Positions 7,154 to 47,513 of a DNA stretch of 48,503 nt are shown piece after piece; positions within the stretch are counted from its first letter, which is position 1; every line of letters starts with the position of its first letter. This DNA comes from Lachnospiraceae bacterium. Its GTDB lineage: Bacteria > Bacillota > Clostridia > Lachnospirales > Lachnospiraceae. The notes below the pieces were generated by a model, which was not told where the DNA came from, made no database searches, and saw nothing but the letters and a program-made list of their open reading frames with translations. The DNA lies in assembly GCA_017614155.1 (NCBI GenBank), contig JAGACK010000019.1, forward strand, positions 1-48,503, read 5' to 3'. The translations under genes and the position numbers were made by a program.

Positions 7154-7903
7154 TCATATTTTGAAATAGGATTTCATGACCCTGTCAAAGATGACAGGCT
7201 GATCGAGGAAGGAGAAATGACCTGCTCCCTCCAGTTTCACCAGGCCGGATCCTTTGATGTGCTGTTCCATGTATTCCCCGTCGCTTAATGGGGTTGCTGT
7301 GTCGGCAGTGCCCCAGATGAGCAGGGTCTCGGCTTTGATGTTCGGGATGAGCTCTGTCAGGTCTTCATTGATGGACTTTACCATGGTTGCCCTCATAAGG
7401 GGAGTGGCGTTCCGGTAGTCTGCCGATCCATGGGACTTTTTGTATTCCTCCAGCTGTTTTTCGGACATGAATTTTTTTGCAACTTTGAAGGCTTTCTGTT
7501 TGAGGGCAGCTTTTCCCTTCACCTGATGTCTGATACCAGCCGCGTCAATGAGGACGAGCTTTTCCACCTCAAAGGGAAGATTTTCCCTGTTCATGAGTTT
7601 GATGATGATCCGCCCACCGAAGGAATGCCCTATTATGGAAAGTTTTCCTATATTAAGCGCTTTTATAAATTCTGTGACAAAATCCGCGTAGGCATCTACA
7701 TCCCAGGGTTCGGGAGGTTCGGGTGTCCCTCCCGTAAAGCCGGGAAGATCGAGGAGAATGACGCGGTATCCTGAAGATATGGTATCGGCAATACTTTTGT
7801 ATAGTTCCTTTTTTGCGCTCCAGCCCGGGAGCATCAGGACCCAGGGGCCGTCTGCCCCCTTTATTTCGTATGCAGTTTCTATATCGAATACTTTTATAGT
7901 CAC
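7154..7903 (-). CDS. Alpha/beta hydrolase
   Basis: A 249-residue cytoplasmic hydrolase of the alpha/beta fold. The visible catalytic elements are the oxyanion region MLPGWSA, the nucleophile elbow GHSFGGR (Ser), the acid in LIWGTADTATP (Asp) and the histidine in GAGHFSFLDQP. A longer reading frame reaches 8047, but its first 48 residues lie over the Ddl gene and do not resemble a hydrolase. I choose the GTG at 7903, which has GGAG seven bases upstream and overlaps the Ddl stop codon in GTGA. This is the last gene of the cell-wall operon and is translationally coupled to ddl. The substrate is unknown; esterase or a similar role is the general expectation. Confidence 0.85.
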   Translation of the reverse strand: MTIKVFDIETAYEIKGADGPWVLMLPGWSAKKELYKSIADTISSGYRVILLDLPGFTGGTPEPPEPWDVDAYADFVTEFIKALNIGKLSIIGHSFGGRIIIKLMNRENLPFEVEKLVLIDAAGIRHQVKGKAALKQKAFKVAKKFMSEKQLEEYKKSHGSADYRNATPLMRATMVKSINEDLTELIPNIKAETLLIWGTADTATPLSDGEYMEQHIKGSGLVKLEGAGHFSFLDQPVIFDRVMKSYFKI

Positions 7904-9099
7904 TTCTTTGCTCCGGAGAAGGATGCTTTGTCGAGAAGGTTTGTCTCGAAGGAGAAATTGACACGGCGATTGTCCCTGGCGCGCTTCAGGGCCAGTTCGA
8001 TGAGCCTGTCGAGAAGTTCTTTGTAGGACATGCCGTCTGCTTCCCACAGATAAAACGACAGAGAACCGGGGATGGTATTTATCTCGTTGAGGAAGAGTTC
8101 TTTCGTATCCTCGTCCAGTATGAAATCAAAGCGGACCACCCCGCTGCAGTCAAGCACCTTGAAGGCTTTGACCGAAAGCTCCCGGATCCTTTCCGACAGT
8201 TCGTCCGGTATGTCTGCCGGGATCTTTCTTTGCAGGGACGCCATGCCCTTTGAGCCGGAGGCTCCCGTCTCCTTTGAGCCTTTGCTTCCTTTGCCGCCGC
8301 TCAGGTATTTATCCTCGTAGCTTAGTATCTCGTCTGTGTGGAAGGGTTCCTCACAGGGTGAAGCCTTGGCATCTGCAGCATCTCCCAGTACCGAGCAGTT
8401 TATCTCCCTTAAGTTTTTCACGGCTTTTTCAATGAGGATGGTATTTGTGAAAAGAAAGGCATTGTCCACTGCCTTTATGAGGCCGTTCCTGTCATCTGCA
8501 ACCATGATCCCGACAGAGGAGCCGGAGTTTACGGGCTTGACTATGACGGGATATCCTATTTTTTCCTCAGTCTTTTTTGCAAGACTGTCCATATCACTGT
8601 AATCTGCCAGTGTGAATCTGAGGCAGTCGAGGACCGGAATATCGTTGTACCTGAAGGCCGTCTTTTGAAGGTATTTGTCCATTCCGACCGCTGCCGAGGT
8701 GACATCACAGCCCACAAAGGGTATGCCGATGGTTTTGAGGTGTCCCATCAGGGTTCCGTCCTCCACATTTGTGCCGTGGACCACGGGAAAAGCAATATCT
8801 ACTTCTATTTTAGTATTCCCGCCGAATTTCTTTGAAGGGTAGTTTACAAGATAGAATCTTTTGTTATCGTTTATGAGGATCACTCTTTCGGAGGATGAGA
8901 GCAGGGACGGGATCTGCCTGTAGGCTTCGATATCGCCGGTCTTTTCCCCGTAGTAGAATTCGTTCTCTTTTGTCATATATACGGGATAGATCTCGTATTT
9001 TTCGCTGTCCATATTGGCCATGGCCTGCAGAGCCGAGATAACGGACACTTCATGTTCTACGGATCTTCCTCCGAATATCAGTGCAATTCTTATTTTCAT
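7900..9099 (-). CDS. ddl: D-alanine--D-alanine ligase (ATP-grasp)
   Basis: This enzyme joins two D-alanines with ATP to make the dipeptide used in peptidoglycan stem peptides. At 399 residues it is longer than the usual 300-370. Residues 4-21 hold the N-terminal signature FGGRSVEHEVSVIS, residues 183-198 the ATP-grasp loop YPVIVKPVNSGSSVGI, and residues 338-346 the metal-binding NEINTIPGS. A Gly/Ser/Lys-rich stretch at about 267-287 (GGKGSKGSKETGASG) sits after YEDKY, where the omega loop closes the active site, and accounts for much of the extra length. The ATG has AAAGGAG upstream and lies ten bases after the MurF-like gene. D-Ala-D-Ser or D-Ala-D-Lac specificity cannot be excluded by eye, but no VanH- or VanX-like gene is present, so ordinary Ddl is the best call. 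Confidence 0.9.
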   Translation of the reverse strand: MKIRIALIFGGRSVEHEVSVISALQAMANMDSEKYEIYPVYMTKENEFYYGEKTGDIEAYRQIPSLLSSSERVILINDNKRFYLVNYPSKKFGGNTKIEVDIAFPVVHGTNVEDGTLMGHLKTIGIPFVGCDVTSAAVGMDKYLQKTAFRYNDIPVLDCLRFTLADYSDMDSLAKKTEEKIGYPVIVKPVNSGSSVGIMVADDRNGLIKAVDNAFLFTNTILIEKAVKNLREINCSVLGDAADAKASPCEEPFHTDEILSYEDKYLSGGKGSKGSKETGASGSKGMASLQRKIPADIPDELSERIRELSVKAFKVLDCSGVVRFDFILDEDTKELFLNEINTIPGSLSFYLWEADGMSYKELLDRLIELALKRARDNRRVNFSFETNLLDKASFSGAKK

Positions 9100-10567: not shown

Positions 10568-11712
10568 ATGAACTCCTCTATCCGGGATAGAGCCTCTTTC
10601 AGGTTCTCGATGGAATAGGCATAGGATATGCGAAGGAAGCCCTCGCCGCAGTCACCGAAGGCCGTGCCCGGAACGACGGCGACCTTTTTTGCTTCAAGGA
10701 GCTTTATGGCAAAATCATCCGAGCTCATATTGAAGCGTTTGATGCTCGGAAATACATAGAAGGCGCCGTAGGGCTCAAAGCAGTCAAGACCCATCCTCCT
10801 GAATTCGTGCATGAGGAACCGCCTGCGCTCGTTATATGCAGTCCTCATCTCCTCAACATCTCTCTCTCCGTGCTTTAGTGCTTCTATCGCAGCGTACTGG
10901 CTCGTGGTCGGAGCGCACATGATGCAGTACTGATGGAGCTTTGTCATCTGCGAGATGATGTTTTCGGGACCGCAGGCATAGCCCAGTCTCCATCCGGTCA
11001 TGGCAAAGGCCTTTGAAAAACCGTTGATGAGGATGGTTCTTTCTCTCATACCGGGAAGGGATGCTATGGATGTATGTGTTCCTTTGTAGGTCAGCTCGGA
11101 ATAGATCTCGTCGCTGAGCACATATATGTCGTGATCTTTTATTATGGGAACGATCTTTTCAAGATCCTCTCTTTCCATGATGGCGCCGGTCGGGTTGTTG
11201 GGGAAAGGCAGGATCAGGACCTTTGTCTTTTCAGTGATGGCTCCGAGGAGCTTTTCCGGTGTCAGGCGGAATTCGTCCTTTTCTTCAAGCTCGACTATGA
11301 CGGGCTTCCCTCCGGCCAGGATCGCGCAGGGCTCATAGGAAACATAGCTTGGCTGGGGGATGATGACCTCGTCTCCGGGATTGATGAGGGCGCGCAGCCC
11401 CATGTCTATGGCTTCGCTTCCTCCGACAGTGATCAGGACTTCCTGTTTCGGATCATAGGTGATGTTGGTCCCTTTGGCGATATATTTTGATATCTCGCGG
11501 CGAAGCTCCATCAGGCCGGAATTTGATGTATAGAAAGTCCTTCCCTTTTCAAGCGAATAGATGCCCTCATCCCTGATATGCCAGGGCGTGTCAAAATCCG
11601 GCTCCCCGACTCCCAAAGATATGGCATCCTTCATCTCCGAAACTATATCAAAAAATTTTCTGATGCCCGAAGGCTTCATGTCGCGAACTACTGAGGCAAT
11701 GGGATCTTTCAT
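10555..11712 (-). CDS. PLP-dependent class I/II aminotransferase
   Basis: A 385-residue fold-type I aminotransferase. Lys234 in NGFSKAFAMTGWRLGY is the expected PLP lysine. PNNPTGA (171-177) and SDEIYSELTY (200-209) are the usual cofactor-contact motifs, and the N-terminus has the substrate-contact pattern GVGEPDFDTP. Proteins of this type usually act on aromatic amino acids, aspartate or branched-chain substrates; specificity is not determined here. Its start codon overlaps the Lrp regulator stop in ATGA, a pairing with an Lrp/AsnC regulator that is common in Firmicutes. Within a cell-wall operon a role in supplying amino acids for stem peptides is possible, but that is inference. Confidence 0.88.
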   Translation of the reverse strand: MKDPIASVVRDMKPSGIRKFFDIVSEMKDAISLGVGEPDFDTPWHIRDEGIYSLEKGRTFYTSNSGLMELRREISKYIAKGTNITYDPKQEVLITVGGSEAIDMGLRALINPGDEVIIPQPSYVSYEPCAILAGGKPVIVELEEKDEFRLTPEKLLGAITEKTKVLILPFPNNPTGAIMEREDLEKIVPIIKDHDIYVLSDEIYSELTYKGTHTSIASLPGMRERTILINGFSKAFAMTGWRLGYACGPENIISQMTKLHQYCIMCAPTTSQYAAIEALKHGERDVEEMRTAYNERRRFLMHEFRRMGLDCFEPYGAFYVFPSIKRFNMSSDDFAIKLLEAKKVAVVPGTAFGDCGEGFLRISYAYSIENLKEALSRIEEFICCF

Positions 11713-12212
11713 GGTGTGATCAGCATCCTTTCATCCTCGTATTTCTTTGCCAGAATGGTTCCGTTAACCTTGTATTTCCTCATAATAAAATGCGTGGCGC
11801 AGCTGAGCACCGATTCCAGGGCAGACAGTTTTTCCGAAACGAATCTCGAGACCTCTTTGAGGGTCTGTCCCTCCATGATCACCATCAGGTCAAAGCCTCC
11901 GGATATGAGGTAAACCGAATCGACCTCGGCAAATTTGTATATCCTTTCCGCTATGACATCAAAGCCCTGTCCTCTCTGCGGCGTGACGCGGACCTCTATG
12001 AGAGCCGTGACCTTCTGCTCGTCAGTCTTGTCCCAGTCTATGAGAGTATGATATCCGCAGATGATCCCCTCTTTTTCCATGTCGGACATCTCGTTTGCAA
12101 CATCTGTCTCATCTACACCGAGCCTGATCGCCAGATCGTGAAGATCCACCCTGCCGTCATGTTCTATGGACTTTAATATCCTCTGTCTTAATTCGTTTAT
12201 CTCGTTTGACAT
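11709..12212 (-). CDS. Lrp/AsnC-family transcriptional regulator
   Basis: A 167-residue regulator. An N-terminal winged helix-turn-helix occupies about residues 8-60 (DLHDLAIRLGVDETDVANEM is the HTH). It is followed by an effector/oligomerisation domain at about 68-150 with the typical pattern VTALIEVRVTPQRG, VYLISGGFDLMVIMEG and V-x-S-CATHFI. Such proteins bind amino acids and control their metabolism, often including their own operon. It overlaps the upstream PurM-like gene by 16 bases and the downstream aminotransferase by four, so the three are made together. Autoregulation of the operon is likely from family habits, but no operator is evident. Confidence 0.9.
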   Translation of the reverse strand: MSNEINELRQRILKSIEHDGRVDLHDLAIRLGVDETDVANEMSDMEKEGIICGYHTLIDWDKTDEQKVTALIEVRVTPQRGQGFDVIAERIYKFAEVDSVYLISGGFDLMVIMEGQTLKEVSRFVSEKLSALESVLSCATHFIMRKYKVNGTILAKKYEDERMLITP

Positions 12213-34011: not shown

Positions 34012-34085
<74 letters not shown>

Positions 34086-34108
34086 TTTATCAATTCTGTT
34101 TTTGAAAG

Positions 34109-34147
34109 AAAAGCATCAACCCCGTCTTTTGCGGAACCGATGCTTTT
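34109..34147 (-). other. Hairpin between the two tRNAs
   Basis: AAAAGCATC (minus strand, 34139-34147) pairs perfectly with GATGCTTTT (34109-34117), a nine-base stem with a 21-base loop, followed by CTTT on the minus strand. It may be a processing signal or a leaky terminator between tRNA-Lys and tRNA-Pro. Confidence 0.45.
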
Positions 34148-34150
34148 TAG

Positions 34151-34223
34151 TGCGCCTCCAGGGACTCGAACCCTGGACACCCTGATTAAGAGTCAGGTGC
34201 TCTACCAACTGAGCTAGAAGCGC
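34151..34223 (-). tRNA. tRNA-Lys (anticodon CTT)
   Basis: A cloverleaf with acceptor GCGCTTC (34217-34223) pairing GAGGCGC (34152-34158), anticodon stem CCTGA/TCAGG with loop CTCTTAA giving CTT, T-stem CAGGG/CCCTG and discriminator A. CCA is not encoded. It reads AAG and is the first product of the tRNA transcript. Confidence 0.93.
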
Positions 34224-37990: not shown

Positions 37991-38572
37991 ATGAACGGTC
38001 TTATTTTGAAAGAATCATCAAGGGGGATCGATGCGTTCTCACCGGAGAGCAGCCTGTTGAAGAAACGGATACTGTTCTTCACGGAAGAGTTCACGCATGA
38101 AAGCAGCGACCGCATGATACAGTATCTGCTCTATCTGGATTTGGATGCTCCCGGAAAGGAGATTACCATCTGTATCAACAGTCCCGGTGGGGAGGTCACA
38201 AGCGGTTTAGCCGTATACGATACGATCCGCACACTTAAGAGCCCGGTACGTACCGTATGCACGGGTACCGCAGCCAGCATGGCTTCCATACTTTTCCTTG
38301 CAGGAGAAAAGAGGGAGATGCTCCCGCATACCAAGATCATGATACATGATCCGCTGATCAGCGGCCTTTCAGGCAGCAAGAGGGCCCTGGAACTTGATAA
38401 AGAAGCTGCCCGGCTCATGGAGACCCGCTCAATCATAGCCGGGATAATCGCGGAACGCAGCGGACATGAACTTGAAGAAGTATATGCCAAGACGAAAGAG
38501 GACTGCTTCTTCAACGCGCAGGAAGCCATCGGCTTCGGCATCGCAACAGGTATCGCCGATACGATACTGTAA
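37991..38572 (+). CDS. Accessory ClpP-family serine peptidase
   Basis: A 193-residue ClpP-like peptidase of normal length. The catalytic triad can be placed: Ser96 in GTAASMASIL, His119 in MIHDPLISG and Asp171 in TKEDCFFNAQEA. ICINSPGGEVTSGLAVYDTI is the family strand and helix. ClpP normally assembles into rings and needs an AAA+ unfoldase such as ClpX or ClpA. No ClpX is adjacent; the nearest AAA+ proteins are the VirD4-like ATPase downstream and the 1196-residue protein converging from the other side. GGAAGG lies five bases before the ATG. It opens the plus-strand operon. Being separate from a clpX neighbour, it is more likely an accessory than the housekeeping ClpP, but that is inference. 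Confidence 0.85.
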   Translation: MNGLILKESSRGIDAFSPESSLLKKRILFFTEEFTHESSDRMIQYLLYLDLDAPGKEITICINSPGGEVTSGLAVYDTIRTLKSPVRTVCTGTAASMASILFLAGEKREMLPHTKIMIHDPLISGLSGSKRALELDKEAARLMETRSIIAGIIAERSGHELEEVYAKTKEDCFFNAQEAIGFGIATGIADTIL

Positions 38573-38614
38573 CAAAAGCTACCGTTAACTTCAGTTTCCA
38601 AAAGGAGAAAAATA

Positions 38615-39928
38615 ATGAAAAATGAAAAGGATGAATCATTCCGAATACTTGCAAAAGGGGTAAGGCAGTCCGAAAACAGCCGCGTGACCGGGCTCAACAA
38701 CAACATGCTCGTAACGGGCATATCCGGGTGCGGCAAGACCGGCTCGTTCGTCAACCCCAACATCAACAGCGCACATAACAGCATAGTGGTGGTAGATACC
38801 AAAGGACTGCTCTATGACCGGCACCGTGCCGCGCTTAAGAAGCGTGGCTACCGGACAATGCTGGTGGACTTCGTTCACCCCGAAAAGTCGGTACCTTATA
38901 ATCCGCTCGACGGCGTGAAGAGATTTAAGAAGAAGGTCACACGGGTGATATGGCCGGGTGATTATGACGAAATGAACGATCTCGCGATCGATGCTGAGGT
39001 CGCCGAAGAAGAGATCGTCTCATACCGCCAGCAGGATCTCATGCGCATATCCCAGCTGCTCATACCGCGCAATATGGATGATGAGGCTTTCTGGCCTATG
39101 TCTGCCCAGCAGGTCCTCGAGAGTCTGATGGCCTATGTACTGGAAGTGCTCCCCGAAAAAGAGCAGAACTTTGGCTCCGTGGCCAGGCTGTTCAGGGAGA
39201 TGTGCCGTGAGACAGGGGCTAAGGATTTTCAGGATGTTTCTTTCTTCGCGGAACTTGAGCATGAGTATCCCGAGAGCTTCGCGGTAAACAAGTACCGCAT
39301 GTATTACGGCAACATCAAGGCAGAGAAGTGCTGGGCATCCATAATTCAGTTCGTGTCCAACGCGCTTGCGGTATTTGACTATGACGAGAATGCTGCGATG
39401 CTCTGTAATAAAGGCATTGATCTTGCAGACATCGGCCGCGAAAAGACCGCTCTTTTCGTCAATGTGAGTGACACCGACCGCTCGATGGACAGCATAGTGA
39501 ATGTTTTCTACACCCAGATGTTCCAGTTGCTCTGCAATGAAGCCGACTCAAGGCCCGACGGACGCCTTGCGGTGCCGGTACATATCATGCTGGATGATTT
39601 TGCCGCGAATGTCTACATACCTGATTTCGACAAGATCATCTCCGTGATAAGATCGCGTGACATCAGCGTGAGCGTCATGCTGCAGTCAATATCCCAGCTC
39701 AGGGGGCTTTACACCGACGGACAGGCGTCGACCATCATCAACAACTGCGATACCATGCTCTACATGGGCGGGCAGGATGTCGAAACGGCCAGGTTCTTCG
39801 CCGATAAGGCGGGCCGGCTCCCGGAGGGCATACTCAGCCTCGATCTCAATCAGGAATGGCTGTTCGTCAGGGGCCAGGCTGCCAGGATAGTCGAAAAGAT
39901 CCCGCCATATTCGACACAGATAGAGTAA
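38615..39928 (+). CDS. Soluble VirD4/TraG-like ATPase
   Basis: A 437-residue member of the T4SS coupling-protein family. It has Walker A GISGCGKT (35-42), Walker B HIMLDDFA (323-330, Asp-Asp instead of the usual Asp-Glu), and the family's downstream block: RSRDISVSVMLQSISQLRGLY, INNCDTMLYMGG and ETARFF-x-KAG. Coupling proteins pump DNA or proteins through type IV secretion systems, usually anchored by two N-terminal membrane helices. Here the protein begins almost directly at the nucleotide-binding domain and no membrane helix is present. No relaxase, VirB4 or other secretion gene is nearby. AGGAGA precedes the ATG. A soluble motor recruited to another job is the likely reading. Confidence 0.82.
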   Translation: MKNEKDESFRILAKGVRQSENSRVTGLNNNMLVTGISGCGKTGSFVNPNINSAHNSIVVVDTKGLLYDRHRAALKKRGYRTMLVDFVHPEKSVPYNPLDGVKRFKKKVTRVIWPGDYDEMNDLAIDAEVAEEEIVSYRQQDLMRISQLLIPRNMDDEAFWPMSAQQVLESLMAYVLEVLPEKEQNFGSVARLFREMCRETGAKDFQDVSFFAELEHEYPESFAVNKYRMYYGNIKAEKCWASIIQFVSNALAVFDYDENAAMLCNKGIDLADIGREKTALFVNVSDTDRSMDSIVNVFYTQMFQLLCNEADSRPDGRLAVPVHIMLDDFAANVYIPDFDKIISVIRSRDISVSVMLQSISQLRGLYTDGQASTIINNCDTMLYMGGQDVETARFFADKAGRLPEGILSLDLNQEWLFVRGQAARIVEKIPPYSTQIE

Positions 39929-39953
39929 CCGGATAAAAAAGGAGGTATAAAAC

Positions 39954-40685
39954 ATGGAACGGATAAGCATAGATAAGGTCATAAGCAATGCAAGGACCGG
40001 CAGGGCTATCAGCCCTGTCGGTATCAGATCTGCGGCACTGAAGCTCCTTTCAACACCGATAGATAAACTTGTCAAACCGGTCCGGGATGACTGCGGACCG
40101 GAATGGAAGGATGAATTCTGCGGATTCGCTCACCTGTCCAATCCCGGAAAACCGTATATCGAAGCTGTACGGCACATAAACAGTCAGCTGGATTCGGGAT
40201 TTCCCCGGCTCACTTCGGATCTGTTCCTTTTTATGTCCGGACTGGGTTATCTGGCCAATGATCCGATCAAGCCCTGGCTTGCCATGTGCGCCGAAGATGC
40301 CCTGAAGGAAGCCGGAATGGACAAAGAGTTTGAACTATGGCTGGCCGCGGATGCAAGGGAATGGGAAAAAGAGAACGGGCGGGTCCCTTCAATAAGGAAT
40401 ATTCTCATTGAAACTTTTGATGGTTTCGGCGATATGGGCAAAGAGAAAATGGACATCAGCTGTGATGATCTGACAGATGAACTGGCAGAAAAGGTCAGCC
40501 TGGATGAGTACTCCGAACCCTTCAGCAGGACAGACCATATGCTCGGGCTTTCGTATTCCAAAGAGGAGATACGGCAGGATTTTGCAACATATTATACCCG
40601 GCTGTTCTGCAAATGGATGTTGCTTATTATGGTAGAGGCCCCCTACAGGATATATTTGCGAGAGTTGTCACCTTCCGTGGCTTGA
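39954..40685 (+). CDS. Unrecognised 243-residue protein of the ClpP/VirD4 cluster
   Basis: I do not recognise a family. It is a largely helical, soluble protein with no signal or membrane segment; recurrent aromatic/acidic patches are EWKDEFCGFAHLSNPG, FELWLAADAREWEKENG and EEIRQDFATYYTRLFCKWM. It has two CPxxG-free cysteines and no metal-binding cluster. AGGAGG stands eight bases before the ATG and the gene follows the VirD4-like gene by 25 bases, so it belongs to the same transcript. It may be a partner of the ATPase or of the two unknown proteins downstream; no catalytic motif is visible. Confidence 0.7.
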   Translation: MERISIDKVISNARTGRAISPVGIRSAALKLLSTPIDKLVKPVRDDCGPEWKDEFCGFAHLSNPGKPYIEAVRHINSQLDSGFPRLTSDLFLFMSGLGYLANDPIKPWLAMCAEDALKEAGMDKEFELWLAADAREWEKENGRVPSIRNILIETFDGFGDMGKEKMDISCDDLTDELAEKVSLDEYSEPFSRTDHMLGLSYSKEEIRQDFATYYTRLFCKWMLLIMVEAPYRIYLRELSPSVA

Positions 40686-40717
40686 CCTATAATCGGATTT
40701 GAAAGGTGGTGCAAGAT

Positions 40718-41845
40718 ATGGCATTCAGATACCATAATGAACGGTTAAGGATCAGCATGGACGAAATGCTCCGTCGTTTTAAGGAAGTATGCGAAGGCAA
40801 GGACATCTCCGTCGTCAGCCTGGCAAAGGACAAGACCGGTAATTACGATGATAAGAAATTCAAAAAACTCCTTAAGGAGATAGCGCTGGCAGATATTTCG
40901 GAGCCCCAGCTCATGATCATGACGGATGATGAAACAAAGGCGCTCGAAGATGATGCCGAATATATGACTGCCCTGCTGTATGTCCTCATAAGAGCAGCAC
41001 AGGCAGGCCTTGGAAAAGTGCTCGTACATAACGGGAATAACGGTGACTGCGCGCCGGTAAGCGACGACTCATTCGCGTCTGTCATACGGCATGCAAGCGA
41101 TGAAGAATGCATCATGTTCTATGGCACCAGCATAGCCCAGAAGGATCGAGCGAAGATGTTCAGCGATTCCATGGAAGTCACCGCGGAAACCGTATACACG
41201 ATGCTGACCGGCAGGTATCTTCCTTTCCCCGATCCGTACAGGATGAAGAACAAAGCAGCATGGGACGCATATATGAAAGACAAAACAGACGGCGAAGCCC
41301 TGTCCGTTAAGGATATTGGCGCTCCTGACTTACCGTCGGATGACTATGTTTATCCCGACGATGATCTCTATGACTCCGACGATTCCTACGAGCCCGGTGA
41401 TTTCTACGAGCCCGATGAATACAGCATGATGGATATGTACTCCTTTTACCAGGAACAGGAGATGGAAGATTACTACCACGGAGATCCTCAAAGCGACCGG
41501 GACTGGCATAAGTATCTTGAATTCGATCCCGAAGAAGGCAGTTATTATCTGGAAAGGCAGTACGGCGACTTAAACGATCCCAAGACAAAAGAGATCTATG
41601 ACAGGGATGTAACCCGGCTTAAGCTCTTCTTCCCGGAACAGCATGAATATGTCAGGATGTATGAACATCTTGTCGAGATCACAACAACCGAACATGCAGG
41701 GTGTGAAGGCGGGATCGAGCGTAAGATCGACGAATGGCTGAAAGAAAATGAGAAGATGATCTATTCGGACGAGGATGGTTTTATATCCGTTTTCGAGATG
41801 GTCTGTACCGCCGCAAAGGAAGCGCGCAGGTTCCGGAGAAAATAG
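40718..41845 (+). CDS. Unrecognised acidic 375-residue protein of the cluster
   Basis: I do not recognise a family. Residues 1-175 are globular and mixed (RISMDEMLRRFKEVCEG, YMTALLYVLIRAAQAGLGKVLVHNG). Residues about 205-255 are an extremely acidic, tyrosine-rich stretch with repeats like DSDDSYEPGDFYEPDEYS. The C-terminal 110 residues are helical with charged pairs (RKIDEWLKENEKM, MVCTAAKEARRFRRK). A GTG twelve bases upstream at 40706 is in frame; I choose the ATG at 40718, which has AGGTGG at a normal distance. The acidic tract may be a flexible binding surface for a basic partner. The next gene starts four bases after its stop, so the two are translated together. Confidence 0.7.
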   Translation: MAFRYHNERLRISMDEMLRRFKEVCEGKDISVVSLAKDKTGNYDDKKFKKLLKEIALADISEPQLMIMTDDETKALEDDAEYMTALLYVLIRAAQAGLGKVLVHNGNNGDCAPVSDDSFASVIRHASDEECIMFYGTSIAQKDRAKMFSDSMEVTAETVYTMLTGRYLPFPDPYRMKNKAAWDAYMKDKTDGEALSVKDIGAPDLPSDDYVYPDDDLYDSDDSYEPGDFYEPDEYSMMDMYSFYQEQEMEDYYHGDPQSDRDWHKYLEFDPEEGSYYLERQYGDLNDPKTKEIYDRDVTRLKLFFPEQHEYVRMYEHLVEITTTEHAGCEGGIERKIDEWLKENEKMIYSDEDGFISVFEMVCTAAKEARRFRRK

Positions 41846-41849
41846 CATT

Positions 41850-43097
41850 ATGGGCGATATGTGTTTTACCGACAGGCTTTATAACAGAATACGCGCCCAA
41901 TATGATGCCGACCCCCAGGGATCACTCATCTACAGGATCAAAAAGGCAGAACTCGAAGCGGAAGGATCTTCATCCGTAACGGATAATAAGTCCGGGAAAA
42001 AGAAGCAGCGGTATGCTTATCATACCCTGTATTTCCTGGAACTGCGTGAAGCATTTGAAAAGGCCTCTTCCGGAAACGATGATGATATGCGACGATACCT
42101 TGAAAAGGTGACCGGACTGCTTACAAAGAAGGGACGGGAGCAGATATTCATCCCGAAGGACAAAACAGAACTGGAGAACTTCTGCGAGAGATGGAACCGT
42201 TATCTGAAAGCATTTAATAAAAACTATGAGGATGTAATAACCGGGAGCGATTCCAAAACGCGCACACGGGTCAGCAGGGCGGCTGAAAGGATGACCGGCC
42301 TCATATGTGTCGGAAGGGATGCGTTCGCGGAGCAGAAGATAATAGAGAAGATGCAGGAAGAATTCACCGATGCCTGCGTAAGAAGGGCCTCTGAAGTTTA
42401 CCTTGGGATCGATGACGATCACGATCACGAAGCGAAGACCATCGACAGGACTATCCTGGATGAGTGCGAAAAAGACGGATGGTTTGCCGAACTGTTCTCC
42501 GGCGACGGGAATGATGATGAAACCGCGGATGATATCGAAAACGACAAGGCCATGTTTGCGGCTGTCATCAGGAAAGGAATGGACCGCAATACCAGAGGCA
42601 GCGAAGAATGCCGTAATCTTTTCATCCCGCTGTATGTCGACCGCCTGACCGGCGTAAGTCTTGTCATGATCGGAACCGACTATTGCATCGACAATCATGA
42701 TCATACCGTCCCCTGCGGCCTTGCGGTGATGGAAGCGGATGATGCCCTGATGATCACGGGCAGGGGCCCGGGGCGCTCTTTTTACCGGGCGTATGATGAT
42801 TTTGCCTTAAAATATGAATCCGCTGCCCCGGATGAGGAGAAGTGCCGCAGGGTCTGCTACTCTTATTTTCTGAAAAGATATGACGATTACAGGGTCGCAT
42901 GCCTTAGGGCAAGGCGGCTGTTAAAGGAGACCGGCATAGGGGTTTTCAGCGATATCCCGGAAGAGCTGAAGAAAAGCCGCTTCTACGCAGAGCTGTATAA
43001 ATCACATGAAAAGGATGAAGCCTCGGCGCAGGCGGAACTTGATCGTATCGGTGCAAAGATCACGCATTCTGCACGCCTTAAGAAAGCCTTTCGTTGA
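41850..43097 (+). CDS. Unrecognised 415-residue protein of the cluster
   Basis: I do not recognise a family. The product is helical and soluble. Two features stand out: an acidic and histidine-rich stretch DDDHDHEAKTID near 188-200 and a beta-like segment (FIPLYVDRLTGVSLVMIGTDYCIDNHDHTVPCGLAVMEADDALMI cut short here as VDRLTGVSLVMIGTDY) near 272-290 that could form a small sensor or metal-binding domain. The longer frame starting at 41775 overlaps the previous gene and lacks a ribosome binding site. ATG 41850, four bases after the previous stop, fits coupled translation; 41859 is an alternative. The last 20 bases overlap the convergent minus-strand gene. Confidence 0.7.
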   Translation: MGDMCFTDRLYNRIRAQYDADPQGSLIYRIKKAELEAEGSSSVTDNKSGKKKQRYAYHTLYFLELREAFEKASSGNDDDMRRYLEKVTGLLTKKGREQIFIPKDKTELENFCERWNRYLKAFNKNYEDVITGSDSKTRTRVSRAAERMTGLICVGRDAFAEQKIIEKMQEEFTDACVRRASEVYLGIDDDHDHEAKTIDRTILDECEKDGWFAELFSGDGNDDETADDIENDKAMFAAVIRKGMDRNTRGSEECRNLFIPLYVDRLTGVSLVMIGTDYCIDNHDHTVPCGLAVMEADDALMITGRGPGRSFYRAYDDFALKYESAAPDEEKCRRVCYSYFLKRYDDYRVACLRARRLLKETGIGVFSDIPEELKKSRFYAELYKSHEKDEASAQAELDRIGAKITHSARLKKAFR

Positions 43098-43923
43098 GCC
43101 TTTCCCTGCGCCTGCGTATGCGCGACAGGCAGGAGCGTATATAAACGGCAGTATAAGCCCGGTCCGTTCCGGCCTCTTCCTCGGAAGCCAGTTCCTTTCC
43201 GAGCCCGTTCAAAAGATCATGGACATCCTTATTTCTGTCGTTCTCCGTGCCTATGGTATTAAGGACTTCGGGTATCAGCATATCGACAGGAGGCAGCGCG
43301 TCCTGAACACTGTTATTCCTGTAATACCTTTTTAGAAAGTGCCTGTTATACCTGCCGTCCGTGTAGATGTTCACTATCAGTAATTCCACCAGGGCACGGT
43401 CTCTTTCCGAGAAGTACTCCTCCGGGAAAGTCCTGAGAACTGCCGCCCTTACCGCATCACGGATCTCTTGGTGATGCTTATTGAACACCTCGTTGCTTTG
43501 CTGTGTTTTGCTGCTGTAATCGATACTGTCTCCCGGATCAAACACTTCGGCGTTTTTTATCCTGTCATCCCGGTATCCGCTGTTGAGCCTCCACGCGCAC
43601 TGCTCTGTGAGATAATTCTTAAGCGTTACCCCTTTCGAAGGATCATACTGCGGTATGAGATCATAAAGCGCCAACGGTATGCACCCAAGCATATCATACC
43701 CGTCATACCCCACACTTTCCTTTGTGCGCAGTTTCTTAAAGCGTGTAAGCACGCTTTTCACAAAAGGCGGCAGCGCCGTCGTACTGTCACTTATAAAGAA
43801 ATCCTCCGGATACAGCCGCCCTATCATCTCAACGAGAAGCGCATCCCTCTCCTCCCCCTCGGACTTCTCCGCAAGTTCCGCTGTCTTTTTTTCCAGATAA
43901 TCCCAGTCAATGGCGGTGGTCAT
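43078..43923 (-). CDS. Protein with sigma-region-2-like segment
   Basis: A 281-residue basic protein. Residues about 76-120 resemble sigma-70 region 2 (YDMLGCIPLALYDLIPQYDPSKGVTLKNYL, a few residues of which are the classic 'DPSKG-x-x-x-x-YL'). The middle 150-215 is rich in Arg and Tyr (FSERDRALVELL, HFLKRYYRN), and the C-terminus is a helix with RIRRRRERLNERL. A clear region-4 helix-turn-helix is not evident, so it may be a divergent sigma factor or a sigma-derived regulator. Its start codon shares a base with the stop of the AAA-FtsH gene (TGATG), so it is translated by reinitiation. A regulator controlled by the protease, or controlling the cluster, is a reasonable guess only. Confidence 0.55.
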   Translation of the reverse strand: MTTAIDWDYLEKKTAELAEKSEGEERDALLVEMIGRLYPEDFFISDSTTALPPFVKSVLTRFKKLRTKESVGYDGYDMLGCIPLALYDLIPQYDPSKGVTLKNYLTEQCAWRLNSGYRDDRIKNAEVFDPGDSIDYSSKTQQSNEVFNKHHQEIRDAVRAAVLRTFPEEYFSERDRALVELLIVNIYTDGRYNRHFLKRYYRNNSVQDALPPVDMLIPEVLNTIGTENDRNKDVHDLLNGLGKELASEEEAGTDRAYTAVYIRSCLSRIRRRRERLNERLS

Positions 43924-46900
43924 CAGGGCATACCTATTATCGTCTTCATTTCTTCCGTATTCAGCATCGATCTGTCAAGCAATGCATTTGCAAGATTCTC
44001 TATCTTGTCCCTGTTCGCTCTGATGATCTTTTGTGTCTCTGTAAGCTGATCCGTAAGTATCTCATTTAACCTTGTGTGATACTTTCCTGCAAGCGGTGAT
44101 GTTAACATCATCTCCATAGAAAGCACGGGCAGGAATCCATCTTCCATTCCATAGCGTGTGATCAGGGCTTCCGCCAGCTTTGTCGCCCGCTCAAGATCAT
44201 TAGATGCACCAGTGGTAAGTCCATCTTCCGGAGAAGCCGAGAATTCCATCTCGGCTGCACGGCCTGCCAGCAGTATCCTGATCCTTGCCAGCAGTTCCTC
44301 CCGTGTATATCCCTTTGCTTCTTCATCCTCTATCTGCCTGACCATACCGAGAAAACCACCGCGTGCGATAATAGTCGCCGATTCAGGCGTAAACCTCTCG
44401 CCGCTTATGAAGCTCACATAAGCATGGCCGGCTTCATGCAGCGCTGTCATCCTGAGATGATCCTGTGAAACCTTCTTGACTTCACCGTAAATCATTTCAT
44501 CGAAACAGTCCTTCAAAATTTTAAGCGTAAGGTTCGTTTCTTTTTCAGCCGCCCTGCCGATAGCAATGGTGAGCGCATTCTCTATCTCTGCTATGGAATG
44601 TCCGGCTGTCTGTATCGCGAATTCGTTCAGCGCCTTATCATTCAGTCCGTTCATATTAACGGTAAAATCCTTCATACGGTGCTTCTGCAGCTTAAGGAAA
44701 TCCAGACGCTCCGCCTTATTTGGCCAGCGCATATATACCTTCTTCGTAAAGCGCCTTAAAAGCGCAGGGTCAAGATAAATGTTCTGTTCTCCGAGATTCG
44801 GTTCGGAAGCAGCATTGGTCGCAGCAATCACAAATACGGGTTTATCACCCGGCTGCTTGTCAAAACCGTCCATCTCCGTCATGAGTTCGATCAGTATCGA
44901 CGCAAATAAGTTTCCTCTGTCCCTGTCACCACCGAAGGCATCTATCTCATCGATAAATACAATACTCGGTGCATATTTCCTCGCCAGCCTGAACACCTCG
45001 GCTACCTTCTTCTCGCCCCTGACAAACTGAGTACCCTTGACCGCGATGAACGGACAGTCCGCCTTGGCTGCAAGAGCCCTGGCAAGTTTTGTTTTACCGG
45101 ATCCGGGAGGCCCGTACATCAATATCCCGCGTGATATCATCTGACCGCTTCGCATAAATTCCTGCGGATCCCTGATATACTTGACAAAATGCATGAGTTC
45201 TTCCTTGGCCTGCTGTCCTCCGATCACATCATCCATATCCTCATCCAACTGTCCGGAATCACTCAAGAATACATCCTGCGCGTCAATGCCCATGTTGCTG
45301 ATCAGCCTCATATCCTTTAGCAGCACCGTGATATTTACTTCCTCCTTTGTTATCGCGATACTGTGACCCATTTCGAAATCAAGCGCCCGGCCGCGTGACT
45401 GGAGGCGGGAAAGTGTCTCGGAAAGGAATCTCTCGTGCACCAGATCCGAAATGATGCTCCGGCAGTCTTTCTCTTTACAATTATGTAATGAGATCACACC
45501 CGCAAGGCCCTTCTCTTCCAGCTGTTCACGATCAAGTACCCCTATCCTGTCTTCTCCGAGTTCCATGGCATAAACCGGAGGCATATCCTTCTCCTCGAAC
45601 AGCCAGTGCAGTATCGTATTGCCTTTTGAATCAAAATCAGCGACACCCTGTCCCGATCCTTTATGCTTTTTTTCGACACGCATGAAAGGATCCACCAATA
45701 TGGCCGTTACTTCCTTCTCCCTGATCGTTTTACATATGAATTCCTCACCGGTCTCGACATTTTTCTCGGCATATGCAAAATAGACCTTGTAACTTCCTCT
45801 GACAGGCTTAAAAAGATACCTGTCATTTGTGTTGCACACTATGATGACTGCCGTTTCCTTAACCGGCCGTATAAGCTCCTCGGCAAGTTCCTCATCGGCA
45901 GTTTCTATCTTCAGTGAAATGGGTTTGTCCGCAAAACTCTTTCTTTCTTTTTCGGATAATTCCTCTCCGAGCTGTTCGACCAGCCTGAAAACACAGTCTT
46001 TTATCATGGACTCACTTCTAACGGACGCTACCCTTGCATCCAGCTGTGCTCCCATATGATAAAGGAACAGATACGGCAGCACGACATTGTCATAACTGCA
46101 GTTCACATCAAGCTCGTTCTTCACTGTCTCTGTTGCCCTTTCCATTCCTTTTCGTATAAGCGGCAGAAGCTTCGCCGGTTCCATGTGGTCAAACCCTATG
46201 ATAGATCCCTTGGCAAGTCTTGAAAGAAGCTCCGTCGGCATTCTTTCCGATCCGTTCGTCGGTTCACTATTCAATGCATCGATCATCGTCGTTTCCGATA
46301 TCGAAGAGATCCTTCGCTCCCGGTTATTCTCATAAAAACCCCGGCCCGCATTTGTCGTAAATATAAATATCGTCCCGGTAAAATCTATGTTCTTTTCCAG
46401 GCAGATGTCATGCAAGAATCCCCCATCCAATACAGACAGGAACTGATGCAGCGTATTAATGTGCGCTTTTTCAATCTCATCAACTATTATCACCGCATTG
46501 GGATTGTCCAATACGAACTGTGTCAGTTCGCCTGAATGACCTTTCCTGTACACCTGATCCGAACCTATCAGATTCATAAATGATTCATGCTGGGCATACA
46601 GGTTCATCTGCAGCAGCTTACACGGCCTGTCAAGAAGCTCCGCGGCATTCTTTGCAAGAAATGTCTTGCCCACGCCCGGAGGACCCACGAACAGGAAACA
46701 TGACTCTGGTCCGTTCTTCTTCTCTTCCTTTCTAAGTTCTCCGTTAAACAGCCCCCTTAGGAACTTTTGGATCGCAGGATCCTGGCCGATGATCCTTTCC
46801 GAAAGCTCGCTCCTCAAATGCTCGTACTTGGAAGAAAGATCCATAAGTATCACATCGGATCCTGCATTCTTTTTTTCTTTCCTGTTCTCTTTTTCCCACT

Positions 46901-47513
46901 TGATCCCAAACCTGATGATCTCATCAAGACTCCGCATTGAACCGGAAGCTGTCTCTTTGAAAAACTCATCTAATGCCTTCGCAAATTCCCCATCCGAAGA
47001 ATTCCGTATATACTCCGCCGCTTTTATTGATAATTCCGGTCTGAGTTCCTGTGTGGCATATTTTAGAAACTTAAAGAAATCATCGTGTTTTTTCGCACGC
47101 TTATGCATAACCTCCCTTAACCAAAGGTTTACATACCGCTCAATATCTCCTTTGACATAGTTTCGAAGACAATTCATTAGAGGATCGTATACCGGATTAT
47201 CCGTGATGTTTTTTAGTTCATCTATCAATGCATTAATCTTATTCTCATTGGTCTCTGACTGTAATTTCTTTTTGATGGAGATCACTGTCATATCCCTGGT
47301 GATCGCATCTGTATAAGTGATGATGGAAAACAGCAAAAGCATATGGGGGTGCATGAGCCTGTCCATATTAAAATCCTTAATGCCGCCCTGCGTATTAGTA
47401 ACCTGCGTCAGAGTCGACCCATAATAGATATCATAGAGACCGTAATCCAACACGGCCATAACCTGCTTATCAATATAAAAATAATACTGCTCAACCCATT
47501 CATTGTAAGTCAT
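43923..47513 (-). CDS. Fusion of ClpA/B-type AAA+ and FtsH-type AAA+/M41 protease
   Basis: A 1196-residue protein with no membrane segments. Residues 1-225 are unrecognised helices. Residues 235-470 are a ClpA/ClpB-type AAA+ module: GQDPAIQKF, Walker A GPPGVGKT (277-284), Walker B IIVDEIEKAH (342-351), sensor TTNAG and arginine finger MPTELLSRL (425-433). Residues 552-760 are unassigned. Residues 763-1000 are an FtsH-type AAA+: IGGQQAKEEL, Walker A GPPGSGKT (801-808), Walker B VFIDEIDA (852-859), arginine fingers LRRF. Residues 1020-1196 are the M41 protease with HEAGH (1026-1030, Glu1027 catalytic) and a third zinc ligand in GASNDLERAT (Asp1106). All active-site residues are kept, so two ATPases feed a zinc protease in one chain. 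Real FtsH is membrane-anchored; this one is soluble. No clean IGF/IGL loop for docking ClpP is seen in the first module. GGGAGG stands seven bases before the ATG. Confidence 0.88.
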   Translation of the reverse strand: MTYNEWVEQYYFYIDKQVMAVLDYGLYDIYYGSTLTQVTNTQGGIKDFNMDRLMHPHMLLLFSIITYTDAITRDMTVISIKKKLQSETNENKINALIDELKNITDNPVYDPLMNCLRNYVKGDIERYVNLWLREVMHKRAKKHDDFFKFLKYATQELRPELSIKAAEYIRNSSDGEFAKALDEFFKETASGSMRSLDEIIRFGIKWEKENRKEKKNAGSDVILMDLSSKYEHLRSELSERIIGQDPAIQKFLRGLFNGELRKEEKKNGPESCFLFVGPPGVGKTFLAKNAAELLDRPCKLLQMNLYAQHESFMNLIGSDQVYRKGHSGELTQFVLDNPNAVIIVDEIEKAHINTLHQFLSVLDGGFLHDICLEKNIDFTGTIFIFTTNAGRGFYENNRERRISSISETTMIDALNSEPTNGSERMPTELLSRLAKGSIIGFDHMEPAKLLPLIRKGMERATETVKNELDVNCSYDNVVLPYLFLYHMGAQLDARVASVRSESMIKDCVFRLVEQLGEELSEKERKSFADKPISLKIETADEELAEELIRPVKETAVIIVCNTNDRYLFKPVRGSYKVYFAYAEKNVETGEEFICKTIREKEVTAILVDPFMRVEKKHKGSGQGVADFDSKGNTILHWLFEEKDMPPVYAMELGEDRIGVLDREQLEEKGLAGVISLHNCKEKDCRSIISDLVHERFLSETLSRLQSRGRALDFEMGHSIAITKEEVNITVLLKDMRLISNMGIDAQDVFLSDSGQLDEDMDDVIGGQQAKEELMHFVKYIRDPQEFMRSGQMISRGILMYGPPGSGKTKLARALAAKADCPFIAVKGTQFVRGEKKVAEVFRLARKYAPSIVFIDEIDAFGGDRDRGNLFASILIELMTEMDGFDKQPGDKPVFVIAATNAASEPNLGEQNIYLDPALLRRFTKKVYMRWPNKAERLDFLKLQKHRMKDFTVNMNGLNDKALNEFAIQTAGHSIAEIENALTIAIGRAAEKETNLTLKILKDCFDEMIYGEVKKVSQDHLRMTALHEAGHAYVSFISGERFTPESATIIARGGFLGMVRQIEDEEAKGYTREELLARIRILLAGRAAEMEFSASPEDGLTTGASNDLERATKLAEALITRYGMEDGFLPVLSMEMMLTSPLAGKYHTRLNEILTDQLTETQKIIRANRDKIENLANALLDRSMLNTEEMKTIIGMP

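Follow-up and report, generated by a model that had tools for sequence, protein, structure and literature searches.

The housekeeping ClpXP protease joins a ClpP family peptidase to an AAA+ motor, and, to our knowledge, the motors of ClpP, of the proteasome and of HslV are all AAA+ ATPases. VirD4-type coupling proteins of the CD1115 type (NCBIfam NF045973) belong to integrative and conjugative elements (ICEs), and the Cag5/DotL-type effector-coupling ATPases handle protein substrates together with adaptors, sit in the membrane and deliver into a secretion channel. In this study, a 48,503-nucleotide stretch of DNA from a Lachnospiraceae bacterium (NCBI GenBank assembly GCA_017614155.1, contig JAGACK010000019.1; hereafter the window), which makes up contig 12 of a draft genome (59 contigs, 2.64 Mb), was found to encode a ClpP-like peptidase, P1, next to a soluble VirD4-like ATPase, P2, whose class is here termed sVirD4. 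Like ClpXP, the pair combines a ClpP family peptidase with an intact triad and an adjacent, co-directional ATPase gene; unlike ClpXP, the ATPase is a P-loop enzyme of the coupling-protein type, P2 lacks the ClpP-docking tripeptide and the pocket of ClpP is altered. The CD1115-type coupling proteins share the ATPase core with P2 and form the sister clade of sVirD4, but sVirD4 differs from them by the missing membrane domain, a DDF instead of a DEF motif, the lack of a nearby PF03432 relaxase and the ClpP neighbour. Moreover, sVirD4 is set apart from the Cag5/DotL-type ATPases by the membrane-bound, channel-feeding nature of the latter.

The component families are known, and the ClpP-sVirD4 combination appears to be undescribed; no description of ClpP with a VirD4-type ATPase was found in the open-access PMC literature, which is weak evidence of absence. 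The gene pair, mostly adjoining, is carried by gut and rumen bacteria and suggests a protein-destroying machine. If this is true, a DNA- and protein-transfer ATPase acting as the motor would be a second way of powering chambered proteolysis, and the standard model would be wrong to call P2, and probably its relatives at 128 loci, conjugal transfer proteins. Furthermore, the pair gives context to three nameless protein families, F2, P4 and P5.

The original prediction had treated seven genes of the window, in two converging operons, as one system. Their coordinates and order were confirmed and are given below; gene calls throughout this study are mechanical open reading frames (ORFs), the starts and hence the overlaps of which are approximate.

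37991..38572, plus strand: P1, ClpP-like serine peptidase, 193 amino acids (aa), triad S96/H119/D171
38615..39928, plus strand: P2, soluble VirD4/T4CP-like ATPase (sVirD4), 437 aa, within the sVirD4 clade
39954..40685, plus strand: P3, acidic protein, 243 aa, family of four (window, L221, L223, L229)
40706..41845, plus strand: P4, acidic protein, up to 379 aa, family in 16 loci
41850..43097, plus strand: P5, 415 aa, family in 15 loci
43078..43923, minus strand: P6, 281 aa, convergent to P5, no recognised domain
43923..47513, minus strand: P7, 1196 aa, ClpB-like AAA, FtsH AAA and M41 protease, no membrane segment

P4 is listed with a GTG start, and an in-frame ATG lies 15 bases inward (read by eye); for P5, a longer ORF from 41775 overlaps P4, and 41850 was taken as the likelier start. 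These seven genes are two separate pieces, and the plus-strand operon is the finding. The grouping of P1 to P5 was judged to exceed chance, P6 lies in the same place in three loci, and P7 was judged to be a neighbour only. The single system proposed earlier was retained for the ClpP-like and VirD4-like proteins and the acidic proteins and given up for the minus-strand P7. As had been claimed, the surroundings of the pair in the window showed neither transfer nor phage genes.

Linkage of ClpP with the soluble VirD4-type ATPase

When 48 genomes of the genus were searched with P2, a class of 400-520 aa stood out from the membrane coupling proteins, which measure about 600 aa. The search was extended to 397 family genomes, 398 phylum genomes and a named GTDB collection, in which 257 of 298 pattern matches encoded relatives and 80 of the 257 were taken in. 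Matches of the sVirD4 type occurred, with a patchy distribution, in at least 36 of the 397 family genomes, counting the window's own genome and one contig-edge fragment; at most four candidates were scored per genome and the best matches listed, and the genome counts are lower bounds. The 128 distinct loci analysed here are the 134 fetched minus identical sVirD4 stretches, and a divergent locus (L075), a fragment (L114) and five conjugative controls (L076, L077, L115-L117) had been left out before this count.

A ClpP gene on the same strand was found in 120 of the 128 loci, at no more than 100 bp in 110, and the two ORFs overlapped in 49 of the 120 (22 of these by 4 nt, with mechanical starts). 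The pair was kept in all five loci outside the family, and none of the five control coupling proteins had a ClpP within the fetched stretch. The linkage was also approached from the ClpP side, unselected for sVirD4: all PF00574 matches of the 48 genus genomes included 12 ClpPs at 159-182 bits, set apart from a housekeeping class at 283-295 bits, the lower class being read off the result and not preset. Ten of these 12 adjoin a full sVirD4 (with one gene between them on contig 47 of the window's own genome), the eleventh lies 1.35 kb from a truncated sVirD4 at a contig edge, and the genome of the twelfth (G259) has its sVirD4 on another contig. Four more PF00574 matches (120-247 bits; L252-L255) had no sVirD4 in the fetched stretch, three of them grouping with housekeeping ClpPs, and one further match scored 20 bits. 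Moreover, in 12 genomes selected for sVirD4, all 16 ClpPs of 151-194 bits lay within 1 kb of an sVirD4. The distance matrices of ClpP and sVirD4 (118 pairs) correlated at r 0.864, a value inflated by shared ancestry, and the best of 1000 permutations reached 0.161. A chance neighbourhood of ClpP is contradicted by the 128-locus linkage and the genus test, and a partnership of some kind between the two proteins is highly probable.

The ClpP-sVirD4 pair is a widespread, recurrent module, and the gene order of the system varies between genomes. In each of 12 genomes, clpX comes next after housekeeping clpP on the same strand, and L093 has both this pair and clpP-sVirD4. By analogy with this layout, sVirD4 would stand where the motor would stand. 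In the collections of mobile elements, the IMG/VR scan left one locus with a ClpP-sVirD4 pair (L249), and P2 matched 31 phage and 1106 plasmid records, all below 60% identity; the sole match inspected, H20, was a 620-aa form lacking ClpP, and soluble forms are possible among the others. The ClpP matches on plasmids comprised 41 records, the best of which was a clpP beside clpX.

P1 matched Pfam CLP_protease at 165.3 bits and fell below the ClpP equivalog TIGR00493 (142.9 bits; cut-off 308.6). The complete triad that had been read in it, Ser96-His119-Asp171, is invariant across 40 aligned sequences, although this alignment and the profile built from it include one housekeeping ClpP (L093:2006-2587). 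P1 was 68% identical to its counterpart in L065 and 76-79% identical to those in L223, L229 and L221. In the system ClpPs the triad is kept, and several pocket and N-terminal positions differ from the housekeeping form. What we take to be the docking pocket, with its presumed numbering, is partly kept, with leucine at 114 (L114) in 36 of 39 sequences and Y, F or L at position 62 in 35 of 39. The altered pocket would fit another partner without proving one. A phage origin of P1 was considered and rejected, since head-maturation protease models scored lower (best PHROG 138.1 bits) than the cellular Pfam model.

P2 matched Pfam T4SS-DNA_transf and, scored alone and not with its relatives, passed NF045973 (conju_CD1115) at 291.5 bits (cut-off 250). 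The absence of membrane helices noted earlier was borne out, the top 19-residue Kyte-Doolittle mean of P2 being 1.11 with no hydrophobic segment, and 126 of 128 sVirD4 proteins had no segment above a mean of 1.9. The Walker A motif begins at residue 35 in P2 and, in the 124 of 128 sVirD4 proteins in which it was located, at a median of residue 37; of the conjugative controls, three had it from residues 152, 157 and 173, the short L115 had it from 38, and in L076 it was not located. The Walker B motif of P2 reads DDFA instead of DEF, and DDF occurred in 126 of 128 sVirD4 proteins as against DEF in 14 of 15 conjugative relatives. In the phylogeny, sVirD4 formed one clade (support 83/93), sister to the conjugative CD1115 coupling proteins (100/99). 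Among solved structures, the best sequence relative of sVirD4 was Cag5 (8dol; E 1.5e-18).

Relaxases were searched for as PF03432 matches. Around 30 sVirD4 loci from 25 genomes, none turned up on the same contig at a distance of 100 kb or less, the contigs being those of drafts and some of them short. One lay 107.6 kb away (G088). Thirteen of the 25 system genomes carry PF03432 relaxases and 12, like the window's draft genome, do not. Five conjugative copies were checked for comparison: three in G118 had a relaxase at 4.6 to 17.9 kb, that of G088 had one at 31 kb, and the fifth had no PF03432 relaxase on its own contig. Since sVirD4 almost always lacks a membrane segment, forms a sister clade and has no PF03432 relaxase nearby, it probably takes no active part in conjugation.

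Accessory families of the system

The unrecognised, acidic character predicted for P3, P4 and P5 was confirmed, with isoelectric points of 4.89, 4.52 and 5.64; at E 0.1 neither Pfam nor NCBIfam gave a match for any of the three, and PHROG gave none at E 0.001. In other loci, a helical family of about 250 aa, F2 (two shorter ORFs in some loci), was present in 65 of 128, mostly directly upstream of ClpP, and many operons consist of F2-ClpP-sVirD4 alone. Named isolates with ClpP, sVirD4 and F2 include Schaedlerella arabinosiphila DSM 106076 (L191) and Butyrivibrio sp. AE2015 (L193). The structure model of F2 was confident (89.5) and all-helical. Fused F2-ClpP proteins were not supported: eight ClpPs longer than 225 aa were examined and gave no significant F2 match, and their extensions are probably start-codon artefacts. 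P3 and F2 were mutually exclusive (4 and 65 loci, overlap 0). Membership of P3 in F2 was rejected, as this exclusion is suggestive but the profile comparison was not significant; P3 may correspond to F2 in the loci that have it.

The P4 family occurred in 16 loci and the P5 family in 15, both together in 14. In one genome they are fused as a single 582-aa protein (L178:5295-7040, plus strand), in a locus that has F2 and sVirD4 but lacks ClpP, and because of this fusion P4 and P5 seem to act as one unit. L066 and L194 have the order P4-P5-F2-ClpP-sVirD4, and the window, like L223 and L229, has ClpP-sVirD4-P3-P4-P5. The window's own genome carries the system a second time (L068; G000 contig 47), as follows.

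7314-8438, plus strand: P4
8435-9232, plus strand: P5
9446-10687, plus strand: sVirD4
10761-11513, plus strand: F2
11510-12115, plus strand: ClpP

The ClpP of this copy lies opposite a longer ORF on the other strand. The order of F2, ClpP, sVirD4, P4 and P5 is thus shuffled while the content is kept, which speaks for one function.

The arrangement of the window recurs in L223 and L229 (Lachnospiraceae bacterium AB2028, UBA4364), where ClpP, sVirD4, P3, P4 and P5 are followed in the same order by a convergent P6. Conservation of gene order was found as far as P6, but P7 is not beside P6 there. The P6 copies of L223 and L229 are 22-23% identical to that of the window. The sigma-like character once ascribed to P6 was not upheld, there being no Pfam match and an insignificant NCBIfam sigma-54 match (E 0.062).

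Proposed mechanism and rival explanations

For P1 and P2 as the core of an ATP-dependent protease, with a coupling-protein-type ATPase serving as motor or substrate receptor, we consider the balance to be even. The core is supported by the conserved linkage, the co-variation, the intact triad and P-loop, the lack of a membrane segment and the absence of a nearby relaxase. Beyond this we infer a physical complex, adaptor roles for partner proteins, degraded substrates and a motor role for sVirD4, the last with a likelihood at or slightly under even. According to one study, unfolding of the protein substrate is required for conjugative secretion (PMC5826034), so a coupling-type ATPase is a plausible unfoldase. 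In the mechanism envisaged, the ClpP-like subunits would form a sealed proteolytic barrel, as is established for ClpP and assumed here, and a soluble sVirD4 ring would take the place of ClpX, receiving protein substrates, pulling on them and feeding them into the barrel. The helical partner (F2 elsewhere, perhaps P3 in the window) would be a likely substrate adaptor, and P4 and P5 could be further specificity or regulatory subunits. This fuller picture, a self-compartmentalised protease with a soluble FtsK/HerA/VirD4-class ring as its unfolding motor and with its own adaptors, acting beside housekeeping ClpXP in the same cell, is put forward tentatively. Regulated proteolysis, quality control and defence are all candidates for its purpose.

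Several observations weigh against the protease with an sVirD4 motor. The hydrophobic-G-F/L docking tripeptide occurs nowhere in P2 and anywhere in only 37 of 128 sVirD4 proteins, and is thus not conserved; the DDF change may slow ATP hydrolysis; and the window ClpP has C and T at the positions equivalent to 62 and 82, its pocket being only partly kept. The system ClpPs did not form one clade in a quick tree. Eight of the 128 sVirD4 loci had no scored ClpP: two (L173, L209) are cut by contig ends, L209 retaining a ClpP fragment, and six (L067, L073, L110, L174, L178, L185) have other genes in place, L073 and L185 lying within 1.8 kb of a contig end. Furthermore, nine of 128 loci carry their own ClpA- or ClpX-like AAA+ protein, whose docking position is occupied by a hydrophobic-G-F loop, so that the system ClpP may work with AAA+ motors while sVirD4 does something else. 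The structure models of the accessory proteins gave no hint of function, that of F2 having no match at E <0.001 in PDB and BFVD and that of P5 being poor (mean predicted local distance difference test score, pLDDT, 56.1).

The nine AAA+ loci speak for a reading in which sVirD4 would be a substrate receptor or regulator, with ClpP driven by a conventional AAA+ ATPase, either its own ClpA/X-like protein or housekeeping ClpX or ClpC. The proteins in question (ClpA-like with double AAA, or ClpX-like; L070, L192, L213, L220, L236, L245; L066, L086, L208) are candidate dedicated unfoldases, and their cluster of ten members, excluding the housekeeping ClpX of L093, has nine [LIVM]GF and one FGF at the position of the ClpP loop. 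The partly retained docking pocket agrees with such a driver. However, 119 of 128 operons as drawn, the plus-strand operon of the window among them, contain no member of this cluster, and the clpP-sVirD4 layout copies clpP-clpX; we regard this explanation as unlikely. A defence against conjugative elements, in which an sVirD4 decoy would recognise relaxases or transfer proteins and hand them to ClpP, draws on the sister relation to the coupling proteins of ICEs, on the recognition of relaxosomes by coupling proteins described in one article (PMC7434980), on DpdF-like helicases near some loci and on the patchy distribution; the block was missing beside the orthologous flank gene in two genomes (G271, G272), as seen at one flank on contigs of about 6 kb. 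This proposal is improbable, given that PF03432 relaxases are still present in 13 of 25 system genomes, that helicase neighbours stand within the operon in two loci only and that PADLOC-DB 2.0.0 gave no match for P1, P3 and P4 and weak ones for P2 (mad8, E 1.2e-5), P5 (Cyclase, 0.014) and P6 (Cas11b, 0.031), the matches of P7 being AAA models. Least credible of all is that the module decayed from conjugation machinery, with a coupling protein stripped of its membrane domain and a ClpP placed beside it by chance. NCBIfam does call P2 a conjugal transfer protein, and some coupling proteins lacking the membrane domain are reported still to transfer their plasmids (PMC7434980), but the ClpP linkage in 120 of 128 loci and the spread beyond the class speak against decay, and a conjugation remnant was rejected on account of the soluble form with its kept P-loop and the absence of a nearby PF03432 relaxase.

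Inclusion of P7 with the other six genes in one system is very unlikely. In favour are their co-location in the window, where P7 abuts a P6 that is conserved in L223 and L229, the Clp-type AAA+ proteins in the operon of the pair at nine loci and an IGF at residue 439 of P7. As originally described, P7 is a double AAA protein with an M41 protease (AAA_2, AAA and Peptidase_M41; HEAGH at 1026). It resembles FtsH in the AAA and M41 modules with an HExxH motif, and differs by the extra ClpB-like AAA module, by the lack of a hydrophobic segment (top 19-residue mean 1.16) and by a score of 277.2 bits against the FtsH equivalog, below the cut-off of 600. Hydrophobic-G-F-type loops are tied to ClpP docking and ClpB lacks them, according to published work (PMC10149685). 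The first AAA module of P7 has no such tripeptide directly after TTNAG, the site of the loop in the ClpA-like neighbours; its IGF lies some fifty residues further on, and around that place a hydrophobic-G-F is missing from both P7 homologues. One homologue (G265) is 45% identical over 1064 aa and the other (G013) is 31% identical and 1613 aa long; neither has ClpP or sVirD4 in the fetched stretch, and the clpP-sVirD4 pair of G013 is on another contig. The coupling of the two operons supposed earlier was thus contradicted, as they occur independently, and with P7 unlinked in relatives the seven-gene system was rejected.

Other genes near the pair and relatives of P7

Of 394 eligible neighbours, 140 were scanned against Pfam and PADLOC; among the matched families, of which 25 of about 200 were listed, no dominant neighbour function was found. 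Members of a DEAD-box helicase cluster stood no more than nine genes from the pair in 11 of the 128 loci, and in the same operon in two; examples are L187:3904-6372 and L197:4733-7075 (both plus strand), and the latter, scanned singly, matched PADLOC DpdF at E 1e-94. ATPase-like genes of another cluster, commonly arranged as tandem pairs, lie near the ClpP-sVirD4 pair in seven loci (L199, L201, L214, L218, L222, L237, L243), the L214 member matching DnaB_C and the L199 member no Pfam model. In the window, tRNA-Pro and tRNA-Lys lie at 34012-34223 on the minus strand, about 3.8 kb upstream of the plus-strand operon. Finally, the P7 homologue of G013 (L033; G013:C21, 10127-14968, plus strand) has three Walker A motifs and HETGH and is an unusual protease of its own, and two short proteins beside it resemble its N-terminus by eye.

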